This document shows positions 595 through 13,551 of a DNA stretch of 13,955 nt, one piece after another. The notes under the pieces were generated by a model. It ran no database searches. It saw nothing but the letters and a program-made list of their open reading frames with translations, and was not told where the DNA came from. The stretch spans positions 1 through 13,955 of the forward strand of contig JACPQZ010000074.1 in NCBI GenBank assembly GCA_016190205.1. The letters are read 5' to 3'. Origin of the DNA: Candidatus Omnitrophota bacterium. Its GTDB lineage: Bacteria > Omnitrophota > JACPQZ01. Within the stretch, counting starts at the first letter, position 1. Each line of letters starts with the position of its first letter. The translations under genes and the position numbers were made by a program.

Positions 595-1639
595 CGAGCG
601 CCTTCAAATTCTCCGTCGCTAACTCAAAATGGGGGTCAATGCGCGCGGCCTCCTGCCAGGACTCCCGTGCCTCATCCCAACGATGGGTGCGTGCCGCCAG
701 CACACCCAAGTTATTGTACACAAAAGCGTTAGCGGGCGCAAGGAAACGCGCCCTCCCGAGCGCATATTGCGCCTCCTCCCACTTTTCCAGGGCTAGATAC
801 GAAACGGCGAGATTATTCCAGTATTCCGCCCTGTCCGGCATCTCGCGCGTGACCAGCACAAGCTCATCTGCCGCACCCTGCGGCTCATCCAGCTTGAAAA
901 GCGCTATGGCTTTATAGTAGCGGACTTCGGTGTGATCGGGATCGGCATCCAATACTTCCTGTGCCTGTTGGAGATCCTCTTCCCACCGACCGGCACCGGC
1001 CAGAGCCCTGACCAAATGCTTTCCGTAACTTCGCGGCACCGGAACCACACCGCACGCCGCGCGATAGGACCGGATCGCGCCCGCCCAATCCCCTTTTAAC
1101 TCACAGATTTGGCCGCGGAGGTCGTGGGCCCTTGCGTTTTCAGGGTCGGCCGCCAGTATTTTTTGCAAACCCTCCTCCGCCGCATCCAGCCGGCCCAGAC
1201 CCGCATGAAGACAAGCAACGTTGAATGCGGCGGCACCGTCTTTGGGGTTCATCTCCGAAGCGCGCTGGAAAGCCTCCAAAGCCTCTTCTTTCTTTCCATC
1301 CAGCCAGAACAGGTGGCCGAGACGCTTCCACCACCGCGTGTCCTGCGTGACCTCCGCTTGCGCCCGGAACGATACGAGCGCCTCGTCCATTCGTCCCATC
1401 TTCACAAGGCAGGCCCCGATATTGTTTAAAAGATTTGCATGGGACGGTGCCAAGTCCAGGCACCCTCTGTAATATCCCAGCGCCTTTGCCCAATCGCCTG
1501 CCTCGAAGGCCTCATCTCCGGCACGCCAGCTTTGCGCAATGCCCGTGTTTTTCTCCTGCGCCGCGTCTGTCTCCACAACGGCGGGTAGCAACAGGATATG
1601 GCACAACAGCAACGCCTGACAGACATGCGTGAACTTCAT
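572..1639 (-). CDS. Secreted TPR-repeat protein
   Basis: A 355-residue protein, read from the ATG at 1639. Residues 1 to about 26 are a signal peptide: Met-Lys-Phe start, hydrophobic core LLLCHILLLPAVV, likely cleavage before AAQE. The rest is a continuous run of about nine tetratricopeptide repeats, recognisable from pairs such as EAGDWAKALGYYRGCLDLAP, DGKKEEALEAFQRASEMNP and EKWEEAQYALGRARFLAP. TPR superhelices bind peptides or scaffold complexes; the partner is unknown. The gene starts 14 bp after the beta-propeller gene stops and runs 23 bp into the pilin gene, so the three are probably one transcript. A longer frame to 1738 was rejected because it lies inside the propeller gene and lacks a signal peptide. 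The leader resembles that of the upstream protein. Confidence 0.88.
   Translation of the reverse strand: MKFTHVCQALLLCHILLLPAVVETDAAQEKNTGIAQSWRAGDEAFEAGDWAKALGYYRGCLDLAPSHANLLNNIGACLVKMGRMDEALVSFRAQAEVTQDTRWWKRLGHLFWLDGKKEEALEAFQRASEMNPKDGAAAFNVACLHAGLGRLDAAEEGLQKILAADPENARAHDLRGQICELKGDWAGAIRSYRAACGVVPVPRSYGKHLVRALAGAGRWEEDLQQAQEVLDADPDHTEVRYYKAIALFKLDEPQGAADELVLVTREMPDRAEYWNNLAVSYLALEKWEEAQYALGRARFLAPANAFVYNNLGVLAARTHRWDEARESWQEAARIDPHFELATENLKALDEISISE
1531..1639 (-). repeat. Duplicated leader sequence, copy B (TPR gene)
   Basis: The first ~109 bp of the TPR gene align without gaps to the first ~109 bp of the propeller gene (3651-3759). I count 69 matches over the 100-base stretch 1541-1640 against 3661-3760. 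At the protein level 20 of the first 37 residues match, including MKF, VCQ, AAQEK and IA. Confidence 0.8.
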
Positions 1640-1653
1640 AATATCTCTTTTGC

Positions 1654-3759
1654 TCACTCCGCCGGCCGGACAGAAAACCGCAGCACCCGTCCGGAAAATT
1701 TGAATTCCCCCACCCACAGAAAGCTGCCGTCGAAGCATAGTCCCGCAGGCCAGAAAAGCTTGTGCCTCCCGATCTCTGGCTTTGCATCCTCCGGCCGGCT
1801 TGCCCGATCCGTATAGCCCAAAAGGACATCTGCTTCTTTGCCGCCGATGGCATCTTCAATATCTTTCCATATATGAACACGGTTAAAGCACGTATCGGCC
1901 ACGAAAAGATGACCCTCACCCGCGAACACGCCCTGGGGCAGGTTAAAAGGGCGCTCGCCGATGACGATCCCCTGGGCCTTGGGGCCCAGCTCGCTTACCC
2001 GGAAGATGGTCAAAGATCCGGGCTCGGTGGTCAGGACAGCGAGATAGTTCCCATCGCTTGAGAGACGCGAGGGTGCGCGCTCAACGCCGAAGGAAAACTT
2101 GGGGTCAACGTTCGGACCCGGCACGCCGTCCCACACATAGATTTTCCCGGCATCACCCTCCGCAACCGCCAGATAGAAATACCGGCCGTCAAGCGCTATG
2201 CCGCCCACGGGAGCAAGGTCCGCGCCCCCGATCCGTGCCTGAAAACTCGCGTCGGGAAGCTCTCCGGCCAGGGGGAGCTTCTTCCAGACGTAAATATTCC
2301 CGAACCTCTCCGCAAGGACCAGAGTGTCTCCAAAAAGCGCGATATCCGACGGCGGAAACTCGAGCTGGTACCGGTAGTCAGGTTTGACCCCGCTCTCATC
2401 AGGAAGGTTTTTCCAAACCGACAAGGTGCCGTCAAAACCGGAGGCCACAAAAAGGCTTTTGCCGTTGGTTGCAGGAACCGGGTTGGAAATAAAATAATTG
2501 GAAAGCAGCGTCTGGGTGTTCACATCCGGGGCCCCCACGGCAAAATCGGGCGCTTGTCCGGCAGCCGCGGGCATTGCATTAAAGCCCACAATCTTGTTGC
2601 CGTTGGAAAGCGAGATATACACCTTGCCTCCGGCGAAGGCAATGCCTGAACTGTCGCCCGCCTGCCTTCCTCCGAAATCATATCCCGGCTGACCCGGGAC
2701 GCCGCCTACTTTAAGATCGGCCGCGTCCTCTTCGTTTTCCGGAAAGGAATTCCATAGGTACAGCATGTTGGATATCCCGATGAGCTTTCCGTCGAGACTC
2801 ATTCCGGCCCACAGCACATCCCGGCCTTCTCCCTGCTTCCTTTTCTCGCCCATGCGGAAGAGATCGCTCACAAAAAAGTCGTACATCTGGTCATCCCGGA
2901 CAGGAAAAGTCCTCCAGAAAAAATTTCCGCCCCCGCCGCTGGGTTTAGCGTTGTGGTCTCCGATCATAAGATGTTTGCCGTCACTGGCAATACTGCGCGG
3001 TGTGCCAAAATGGTCCTTAAGCGCAAGAACGATATCCGGCGCTTGACTATCTTGGGCGGGTATTTGATTCCAGATGAGGACTTGTGCGGCGCCCGTTGAA
3101 GCCACCACAAGTTTCTGCCCGTCACTCCAGACAGCCCAGGGCCAGACCACCTGGCCTCGCCCTGGCCCCCCTCGAGCCCCCTTGAGCTCCACATCAGCAG
3201 GCTTTGCATTGCTCGAGGGGAAACTGTGCCAGATCAGGATGCGGTCGTTGTAGGTATCTGCTACGATCGCTTTCCCGCCGGCGGCTGCAACGCCCACCGG
3301 CCAGTTCAACTGGTCAAGCCCTGCGCCGGGGCCGTTCGTTGAGAAATCCTTTTGTCCGAGCACGAGATCAGGCGGCGTGTTGTCCGTGGGGAGAGTATTC
3401 CAGATCAGGACCCGATTATTGTTGCGGTCGGCGAGCACAAGATGCGCTCCGTCGCTCGCTACGTTACCGGGGTGATTAAAAAGCAGGGGGCCGCCCGCGT
3501 TGTTGAAACCCGGCGCCGCGAGGATAATATCCGCATCCTGGCCAGCTTGAAACCATCCTGTGGACTTGACGGACACGGTTTTGTAGGTCGAACCAGTGGC
3601 CTCCACCGTGTTAACCTTCTCGAGCCCCTCGCCCTGGGCATGCACCAGGCTGTGCGCAATACTCGCGCCCTTCTCCTGCGCCGCGCCCCCCTCCGAAACA
3701 GCAGACTGCCACAGGAGATAAAACAGAAGCATGAACTGGCAGACACGCTTGAACTTCAT
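1654..3759 (-). CDS. Secreted 12-repeat NHL-like beta-propeller protein
   Basis: A 701-residue exported protein. A signal peptide covers residues 1 to about 26, with cleavage likely before AAQEK. After a short linker I count twelve repeats of about 45-60 residues, each built as '(N/W)P..(I/V)A.DG..L.(V/I)AD...N.(V/I).IW..(L/F)P'. Their cores lie near residues 95, 152, 205, 253, 315, 370, 424, 468, 515, 561, 606 and 669. Examples are ADRNNNRVLIWNTLP and ADTYNDRILIWHSFP. Between many repeats sits a PD.VLG-type spacer, as in NHL-like proteins. Twelve blades fit two six-bladed propellers, though the boundary is not obvious. NHL propellers usually bind proteins, RNA or carbohydrates or, in a few cases, are enzymes; no catalytic motif stands out. 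It is first of three minus-strand genes. The ATG has no convincing Shine-Dalgarno sequence. Confidence 0.85.
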   Translation of the reverse strand: MKFKRVCQFMLLFYLLWQSAVSEGGAAQEKGASIAHSLVHAQGEGLEKVNTVEATGSTYKTVSVKSTGWFQAGQDADIILAAPGFNNAGGPLLFNHPGNVASDGAHLVLADRNNNRVLIWNTLPTDNTPPDLVLGQKDFSTNGPGAGLDQLNWPVGVAAAGGKAIVADTYNDRILIWHSFPSSNAKPADVELKGARGGPGRGQVVWPWAVWSDGQKLVVASTGAAQVLIWNQIPAQDSQAPDIVLALKDHFGTPRSIASDGKHLMIGDHNAKPSGGGGNFFWRTFPVRDDQMYDFFVSDLFRMGEKRKQGEGRDVLWAGMSLDGKLIGISNMLYLWNSFPENEEDAADLKVGGVPGQPGYDFGGRQAGDSSGIAFAGGKVYISLSNGNKIVGFNAMPAAAGQAPDFAVGAPDVNTQTLLSNYFISNPVPATNGKSLFVASGFDGTLSVWKNLPDESGVKPDYRYQLEFPPSDIALFGDTLVLAERFGNIYVWKKLPLAGELPDASFQARIGGADLAPVGGIALDGRYFYLAVAEGDAGKIYVWDGVPGPNVDPKFSFGVERAPSRLSSDGNYLAVLTTEPGSLTIFRVSELGPKAQGIVIGERPFNLPQGVFAGEGHLFVADTCFNRVHIWKDIEDAIGGKEADVLLGYTDRASRPEDAKPEIGRHKLFWPAGLCFDGSFLWVGEFKFSGRVLRFSVRPAE
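3651..3759 (-). repeat. Duplicated leader sequence, copy A (propeller gene)
   Basis: The 5' end of the propeller gene is the other copy of the leader duplication. The two copies share the exact ten bases before and including the start codon region (GAACTTCATA on the plus strand) and an exact TTCTCCTGCGCCGCG block encoding the AAQE area. Confidence 0.8.
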
Positions 3760-3780
3760 AATTCAGTCAACTTACCCCTT

Positions 3781-3912
3781 CGGTTATCGGTTTTCGGTGA
3801 TCGGTTATCGCAAGAAAAAAACATGATGGGCTTTCAGCTTTTGCTGATGGCTGAAGGCTGATAGCCGATAGCTGACGCTGCTTGCGATCACCGATAACCG
3901 ATCCACGAGCGA
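3781..3912. repeat. Heptamer-repeat inverted repeat
   Basis: Intergenic DNA before the propeller gene is built from degenerate 7-bp units. From 3781 the units read CGGTTAT, CGGTTTT, CGGTGAT, CGGTTAT. From 3843 they read GCTGATG, GCTGAAG, GCTGATA, GCCGATA, GCTGACG, and from 3885 CGATCAC, CGATAAC, CGATCCA. The stretch 3795-3814 pairs with 3881-3900 as an inverted repeat with 18 of 20 matches. It is therefore both a short-period tandem array and a large potential hairpin. It is not a CRISPR: the units are far too short and there are no spacers. Confidence 0.75.
3815..3858 (-). terminator. Possible terminator downstream of the tRNA genes
   Basis: Read on the minus strand, GCCTTCAGC (3858-3850) can pair with GCTGAAAGC (3838-3830), with eight of nine pairs and an 11-base loop. 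Seven T residues follow (3821-3815) after a gap of eight bases. The gap is longer than in a standard intrinsic terminator, so this is weak. It would end the tRNA transcript before the propeller gene. Confidence 0.3.
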
Positions 3913-11270: not shown

Positions 11271-12197
11271 GTGTCGCCCTTCGGCTGGGTAGCTTTTCAC
11301 GTCCTCATTTTAACTCTCCTCGCCTTCGATCTATTATATTTCCAGAAAAAACCGCGCGAGATCCGCATCCGGGAGGCCGTACTCTGGAGCGTCTTTTGGA
11401 TCATTCTCTCTCTATTATTTAACGGCTGGATCTACATCTCCAAAGGTTCCGACGCGGCCCTCAAGTTTCTCACGGGATACATCCTCGAGAAATCCTTGAG
11501 CGTCGACAATCTCTTCGTCTTTCTTCTCATCTTTTCGCACTTTCGTATTCCGTCCGTCTACCAGCACAAAATTTTGTTCTGGGGAATCCTGGGAGCCCTC
11601 ATCACGCGCATCACCTTTATCCTGTGCGGTGTGGCGATCATCGAGGCCTTTGAGTGGGTCCTATACATCCTGGGCGCCGTTCTTATATGGGCAGGGGCGC
11701 GCCTCTTGTTCGAGAAAGACAAAGAGGTGGAACCCGAGAAGGGGTTTCTACTCAAGCTCTTTCGAAGACTGCTTCCCATCACCCCGGGTTTGGAAGGGGG
11801 CCGGTTCCTTGTCAAGAAAGGCGGCCGGATCATGGCCACCCCCCTGCTCGTAACCCTCGTGGTCATTGAAACGACCGACATTGTCTTCGCCATCGATTCC
11901 ATCCCTGCGGTCTTGGCCATCGCACGCGATCCCTTTATTGTTTACACGTCCAACATCTTCGCCATACTGGGAATGCGCGCCCTGTTCTTCGCCCTGGCAG
12001 GCGCCATGCAGCTCTTCCACCACCTGCATTACGGGCTGGGGGCCATACTGATCTTTGTTGGGATTAAAATGGCGACCGAGGGACTCCTGCACATCCCCGT
12101 GGCAATCGCCTTGGCGGTCGTGGTCGTCATCCTGACCCTGTCCATAGCCGCCTCGCTCATCTTTCCCGACAGAAAGGGGTCAGGTCTTGCAAAATAA
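11271..12197 (+). CDS. TerC/Alx-family membrane protein
   Basis: A 308-residue integral membrane protein of the TerC family, linked to tellurite resistance and, for relatives such as Alx and MeeF, to manganese export and metallation of exported proteins. Helices cover nearly the whole sequence. The signatures EKSLSVDNLFVFLLIF (73-88) and ETTDIVFAIDSIPAVLAI (200-217) carry the conserved acidic residues proposed to bind metal. The only available start is GTG at 11271, because an in-frame TGA lies six codons upstream; no ribosome site is seen, so translation may be coupled to lapA, four bases upstream. The last six codons (GSGLAK) and the stop lie in a palindromic element, so the native C-terminus was probably different. 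I see no yybP-ykoY riboswitch in the short upstream spacer. Confidence 0.93.
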   Translation: MSPFGWVAFHVLILTLLAFDLLYFQKKPREIRIREAVLWSVFWIILSLLFNGWIYISKGSDAALKFLTGYILEKSLSVDNLFVFLLIFSHFRIPSVYQHKILFWGILGALITRITFILCGVAIIEAFEWVLYILGAVLIWAGARLLFEKDKEVEPEKGFLLKLFRRLLPITPGLEGGRFLVKKGGRIMATPLLVTLVVIETTDIVFAIDSIPAVLAIARDPFIVYTSNIFAILGMRALFFALAGAMQLFHHLHYGLGAILIFVGIKMATEGLLHIPVAIALAVVVVILTLSIAASLIFPDRKGSGLAK

Positions 12198-12226
12198 CAT
12201 GTGTGATACTGCAAGACCTGACCCCT
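12175..12226. repeat. Perfect 17-bp-arm palindrome (REP-like element)
   Basis: The left arm AGGGGTCAGGTCTTGCA (12175-12191) and right arm TGCAAGACCTGACCCCT (12210-12226) are exact reverse complements, around an 18-base loop containing ACATGT. The left arm is inside the terC frame. The GGGGTCAGGTCTTGCA arm looks to me like REP/RAYT-associated palindromes common in environmental bacterial genomes; that is from memory. It sits between convergent genes and could end transcription in both directions, but there is no T run on the plus-strand side. Confidence 0.85.
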
Positions 12227-12234
12227 CATTAAGA

Positions 12235-13551
12235 CTAGACGCGGTCGCGTCCCACGACGGGGCGTATCCCTAAGACGCTGAAAAAAAGATCGCGGCTCGT
12301 GATCCTCTCCACGGTCCCCCTCACTTCCTTAAATCCGCCCGACAGGATGAAATGGGAACCATACCGGAGCGCCGACGAAAGCAGGAATACCCCGTATAGC
12401 TTGTAACCCCACAGGGGCGGCAGGTGCTCCGCGAGATACCCACCCAAAGACGCCCCCAAAAAAATGGCCGTGCCGTTGATGAGATTAAAGTAACTCAAAC
12501 AACGCATCCTCTTTTCGGGAACCACGGCGTCGAAGATGAAATTCACGGAGCACAGGTTAAAGCCGCTCCACATAAACCCCGCGAAGAGCTCAACCACGAT
12601 CAGGAGATAAAACTCCCGGGTCATGAGCCAAAGCAGCGGGATCATGGGTACGATAAGTCCGGTGAGTTTCATGACCTGGGCATTGCCCACCCGGTCGGCG
12701 TGCCGGCCCCAGATGGGAAAGGCCATGAGGCCCGAGACCACCGCCGCAAGGTGCATCAACATATATTGCACGTAGGTGAAGTGAAGATTTTTGAGCATAT
12801 AGACGCTGAAATAAGGCGAGGCCACTTGAGTCGAAAAAGTCATCAAGGCCACGTAAAAGACGAATTTAACAAAATTGCTTTCTCGGAAGCGGCGCAGAAA
12901 ATCTATGAGGCTGAAGCGGGCATCGGGCCCGCCGGGTCCTACAGGAACATCCTCCATGCGGGCCATCCAGAACGTGGATGCAAACCGCGCGGCCACCGGC
13001 AGAAGGAAAACGACAAAAAATGCGAAAGATATTGAAAACACCTTCAGGGCGGCCAGCAAAAGTCCCCCGATAGCTAACCCCACGATACCTGCAAAACCCG
13101 AAATCTTGCCGCGCCACCCAAGGTAGGCCCCGCGCTCCTCCGGGGTAAGGTAACTCGAGACCAGGCTCCCCCACACGGTACCAATCAGATTTCCCAGCAC
13201 ACGAAAAACGATGACCGCAAGGATGAGCGCGTACACCCTCCTTCCGTTCCCCAGAAACGGCAGGACGGCGATGGGAAGGAGAAGGGCTGCCTGGACACAG
13301 GCACCCTGTGTTAAGAACCTGACGCGGCTCGTGACCTTCGTGACGAGGTTTGCGGCGAAAATCTGGGAAAACGACCCCAAAAGGTGCGGGATGGCCACGA
13401 GCCACCCGATCTGGCGGGGGCCCGCGCCCAGAAAAAGGGCGAGCGGAATGAAATAGTAATCCGTCACGGCGATCATGATGCTCGCCGCGATGCCTTCCTT
13501 CCAGGAGGCATCCAGGCTTTTTCGGTGCTGAGTAGGAATCGGGATAGACAT
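12235..13551 (-). CDS. Major facilitator superfamily transporter
   Basis: A 438-residue membrane transporter with the MFS layout of 12 hydrophobic segments in two halves, separated by a polar loop at about residues 195-220 (ARMEDVPVGPGGPDARFSLI). The MFS-type loop after helix 2 reads VTKVTSRVRFL rather than the classical G-x-x-x-D-R-x-G-R-R. The equivalent in the second half is IWGRHADRVGNAQVMKLTG (residues 274-292), which does fit the A-motif. The LTPEERGAYLGWRGKISGFAG segment is characteristic of a group of uncharacterised MFS proteins. The substrate is unknown; the start at 13551 has no ribosome site and follows the methyltransferase stop by 11 bp, suggesting co-transcription. Confidence 0.88.
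   Translation of the reverse strand: MSIPIPTQHRKSLDASWKEGIAASIMIAVTDYYFIPLALFLGAGPRQIGWLVAIPHLLGSFSQIFAANLVTKVTSRVRFLTQGACVQAALLLPIAVLPFLGNGRRVYALILAVIVFRVLGNLIGTVWGSLVSSYLTPEERGAYLGWRGKISGFAGIVGLAIGGLLLAALKVFSISFAFFVVFLLPVAARFASTFWMARMEDVPVGPGGPDARFSLIDFLRRFRESNFVKFVFYVALMTFSTQVASPYFSVYMLKNLHFTYVQYMLMHLAAVVSGLMAFPIWGRHADRVGNAQVMKLTGLIVPMIPLLWLMTREFYLLIVVELFAGFMWSGFNLCSVNFIFDAVVPEKRMRCLSYFNLINGTAIFLGASLGGYLAEHLPPLWGYKLYGVFLLSSALRYGSHFILSGGFKEVRGTVERITSRDLFFSVLGIRPVVGRDRV

Follow-up and report, generated by a model that had tools for sequence, protein, structure and literature searches.

A signal-peptide start duplicated between two neighbouring genes for unrelated, probably exported proteins in an Omnitrophota bacterium

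Two adjacent genes in the genome of a Candidatus Omnitrophota bacterium, encoding a predicted beta-propeller protein and a predicted TPR-repeat protein, begin with copies of one ancestral 5' end that arose by duplication and not by convergence. The pair adds a new case of N-terminal signal capture, with a Sec-like signal shared by neighbours in a likely operon. It is clearly a one-off capture of an export signal and not an instance of a widespread sorting tag. It remains readable in the DNA how a bacterial gene can come by an export signal, namely through a copy of the beginning of its operon neighbour.

A duplicated gene start

The window, by which we mean the whole stretch of DNA analysed (13,955 bp), is an entire contig of a 1.65 Mb genome of 76 contigs. 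Read along the minus strand, it presents two tRNA genes (Arg, 4253-4178; Lys, 4010-3938), a copy of a dispersed intergenic repeat (3775-3910), the propeller gene (1654-3759, 701 aa), the TPR gene (572-1639, 355 aa) and a type IV pilin-like or pseudopilin gene that matches GspG/PilA-type models and is cut by the contig end (1-594). Both the propeller and the TPR reading frames are as originally predicted, and the span 1531-3759 given for the pair fits them. The two proteins had also been described as different folds beyond their starts, and the Pfam matches agree: TPR families are hit down to E=2e-35 in one, and an NHL repeat above the curated cut-off (PF01436, E=7e-10) in the other. The presumed propeller fold rests on this NHL match, and no solved structure was matched by sequence.

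The propeller and TPR genes lie in tandem on the same strand, with 14 bp between the stop of the first and the start of the second, and are therefore likely to share one transcript and one operon. The start of the pilin-like gene overlaps the TPR stop, and such a neighbour hints that the propeller and TPR proteins act in the envelope or in connection with pili. The pilin-like protein itself carries GW instead of the usual GF at its prepilin cleavage site and is rich in Gly and Ser over a long stretch where the contig stops, with similar Gly-rich stretches in its relatives of family f43 (described below). At the other end of the window, a 52-bp imperfect palindrome (12175-12226) lies across the end of a gene stopping at 12197, ahead of a convergent gene ending at 12235; it is probably a two-way terminator.

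When the window was compared with itself by blastn, a single pair was returned: a 114-bp direct repeat, 71.9% identical (E=2.8e-11), between the start of the propeller gene (3649-3762, minus strand; predicted signal peptide and about 11 mature residues) and that of the TPR gene (1529-1642, minus strand). Aligned without gaps from the ATG, the two leaders are identical at 20 of 37 residues, as first counted, and at 79 of 111 bases, slightly above the earlier hand count of 69 of 100. The identity has sharp ends, starting 3 nt before each ATG and falling to background level after codon 37. By eye, both translations have a basic n-region, a hydrophobic core and a small residue before the cleavage site, as in Sec-like signal peptides, and both proteins are probably exported.

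Signal peptides of this hydrophobic, Sec-like kind form a class that is alike in general, and two ordinary ones might come to resemble each other by convergence. Against this, the local alignment score of the pair at the DNA level is 62, and the best of 5,000 codon shuffles reached 32. Among 8,385 pairs formed from 130 signal-peptide-like gene starts of the same genome (picked by a crude hydrophobicity rule from 40 sampled stretches, 566 kb or a third of the genome), the next best pair scores 30, leaving the other 8,384 at or below that value, and the next pair of neighbouring genes scores 24. The identity moreover covers the start of the mature protein, and we give convergence almost no weight. 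The score of 62 against 30 among the signal-like pairs of this genome shows that the leaders have a common ancestry and that such sharing is rare here. With a DNA identity far beyond that of other signal-peptide starts, the proposal that the 5' end of one gene had been duplicated together with its export signal is supported. The 29% divergence between the copies suggests that the event was not recent.

The repeat may run on weakly as far as codon 46 or so, across a single 3-nt indel, but this stretch is insecure (P=0.03 when anchored, 0.8 by free local alignment). As a possible remnant of the TPR protein's first helix within the propeller gene, and so a clue to the direction of copying, the similarity past codon 37 was not significant.

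Recurrence of the leader and constraint on its residues

The original prediction took the conservation of AAQEK next to the cleavage site as a hint of a functional, perhaps modular tag, and suggested that the copied start, with perhaps a binding segment (AAQEK..IA), might serve to recruit a partner. Such a sorting or binding tag would have been kept for the co-localisation or interaction of both proteins, and two features of the alignment lean that way: AAQEK falls within the longest identical run of the leaders (15 nt), and codons 26-37, the mature part, differ slightly less (7/36) than codons 2-25 (25/72; P=0.12). The length of that run is nevertheless ordinary (P=0.13 at the base level and 0.56 at the residue level), and a small residue followed by AQ after the cleavage site is usual for a leader of this type. 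The 20 identical residues also match neutral expectation, being 18.1 +/- 2.0 in a simulation of 32 random differences (P=0.25), although tests on 37 codons have limited power. The 32 base differences fall 11/10/11 on the three codon positions, and Nei-Gojobori estimates for the leaders are dN 0.30 and dS 0.65. There may be weak constraint on the leader residues, but these tests show no specific constraint on AAQEK.

Nor does the leader recur. Searches with both of its versions found no further gene bearing it in the same genome and no match at a convincing E-value elsewhere in the phylum (384 and 383 sampled genomes), leaving only these two genes as carriers. A DNA pattern search located the only further AAQEK of the genome inside a MarR-like regulator. 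The tag reading, for which no third carrier in this genome or the sampled genomes of the phylum and no excess of residue identity was found, is accordingly very improbable. We infer instead that the leader is an ordinary signal peptide followed by a short linker, which has drifted with little constraint on its exact residues. Common descent by itself can make a motif beside a cleavage site look conserved, and the pair is no pointer to a new sorting system.

Relatives of the two genes and the direction of copying

Relatives of the TPR protein were found in family f43 of the same phylum (E 1e-30 to 1e-37). In four genomes, a pilin related to that of the window (E down to 4e-25) directly follows the f43 TPR gene, the fourth of these pairs (L104) having been reached via the pilin. 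A comparable order of genes occurs in family f2, where a different protein is encoded ahead of the pilin. No propeller gene was found upstream of the f43 pairs in L081, L083 and L104, while the contig of L082 ends at the TPR gene. The TPR-pilin pair thus looks older than its link to a propeller gene. Compared with the TPR protein of the window, those of f43 are shorter and align best from about its residue 98-118, and its first ~97 residues have no clear counterpart in them. Their signal peptides show no recognisable match to the leader, the similarity being within the range of other leaders.

Another pairing was observed in L081 (6613-8702), L083 (5858-7883), L101 (791-2559) and L103 (694-2636), in which a pilin-like protein of ~385-445 aa is followed by a short protein that often has an FTFEYP-like motif. 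More than one family of the phylum has this pairing, several in all, and a TPR protein or a protein with a 'LKNGNAIETKIL' segment often comes before it; it looks like a conserved cassette.

The nearest relatives of the propeller protein are L028 (56% identical, from a MAG titled Dehalococcoides sp. JdFR-56) and L119 (52% identical, genome G091 of the same phylum). Both align only from about residue 46-51 of the window protein. L028 starts with a lipoprotein-type signal and a Pro-rich linker unrelated to the window leader, L119 with a different Sec-type leader and a longer N-terminal region, and the relatives L029-L031 have other leaders too. No TPR-pilin neighbour was found in the flanking DNA examined around the L028 and L119 propeller genes, and more distant propeller proteins of the phylum stand in other gene contexts. 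Close members of the family have a patchy distribution, being present in 2 of 384 phylum genomes including that of the window, and no relatives were found in viral contigs. Three phylum genomes (L076, 3304-8224; L077, 2685-7631; L078, 3457-7499) encode an exported protein of ~1000 aa (FSLPKPLPGEN..STVRIKGLT), and the next gene in each is one for an NHL-type propeller.

We infer from these comparisons, in which the window's genome was the only one returned for its class, that the leader was copied from the TPR gene to the propeller gene. The propeller gene would probably have come to rest ahead of the TPR-pilin pair and then gained the signal-peptide start of the TPR gene as a copy. Given the shorter TPR proteins of f43 and their non-matching leaders, the f43 pairs lend support to this direction, short of proof. 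Copying the other way, with a leader native to the propeller gene whose 5' end was transferred onto the downstream TPR gene, would fit the lack of a recognisable leader in the f43 relatives and of a clear f43 counterpart to residues 1 to ~97 of the window TPR protein. It sits poorly with the other leaders borne by all near propeller relatives examined and with the occurrence of the TPR-pilin pair without a propeller, and we regard it as unlikely, if still deserving of some weight.

On the simplest reading of the preferred direction, from TPR to propeller, a propeller-coding segment would come to lie upstream of an existing TPR-pseudopilin pair, between two copies of the TPR start. An insertion that duplicates its target would turn the 5' part of the propeller gene into a copy of that start. 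Alternatively, part of the TPR gene may have been duplicated in tandem, with the propeller segment later replacing the remainder of the copy. By either route, both genes of the likely operon would end up with a start codon and a Sec-like signal peptide of their own, and their products would both probably pass through the general export route. A single step, in which the direct repeat flanks a propeller-coding insert and marks ~114 bp of target duplicated at the start codon, is rather unlikely. If true, a one-step, target-duplicating insertion would be a route to a new secreted gene or exported operon member.

Only ~15 bp separate the dispersed repeat at 3775-3910 from the propeller ATG that follows it, and, speculatively, the repeat could have served as a recombination site. 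Its 49 genomic matches reach 90-100% identity over parts; it is built of short palindromic units (inverted repeats) of the CGGTTATCGGT and GCTGATAGCCGATAGCTGA types, and has no match in Rfam.

Comparison with known systems

That N-terminal signals can move to new protein bodies is already well established as an idea, above all from type III effectors, in which N-terminal export signals have reportedly been joined to new, unrelated C-terminal bodies. Terminal reassortment of type III effectors appears in a title (Stavrinides, Ma and Guttman 2006) cited in PMC3136466. As in that process, an N-terminal export signal on an unrelated body makes a new exported protein in our case. Unlike it, the signal is Sec-like, the donor gene lies next to the recipient in what is likely a single operon, and only one event is concerned.

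Signal capture is seen here as N-termini that are homologous at the DNA level on proteins with unrelated bodies. A recipient family lacking this N-terminus is found in L028, L119 and L029-L031, if the propeller gene is the recipient. Relatives of the donor would then be the f43 TPR proteins, which have signal peptides of their own and no recognisable match to the leader.

In its body, the propeller protein resembles NHL-repeat proteins (PF01436), which its 52-56% identical relatives match too, and it differs from all the relatives examined in its leader. The TPR gene, with a related pilin gene immediately after it, resembles the f43 pair and the similar f2 arrangement; unlike the f43 pair, the window adds a propeller gene upstream and its TPR protein is longer N-terminally.
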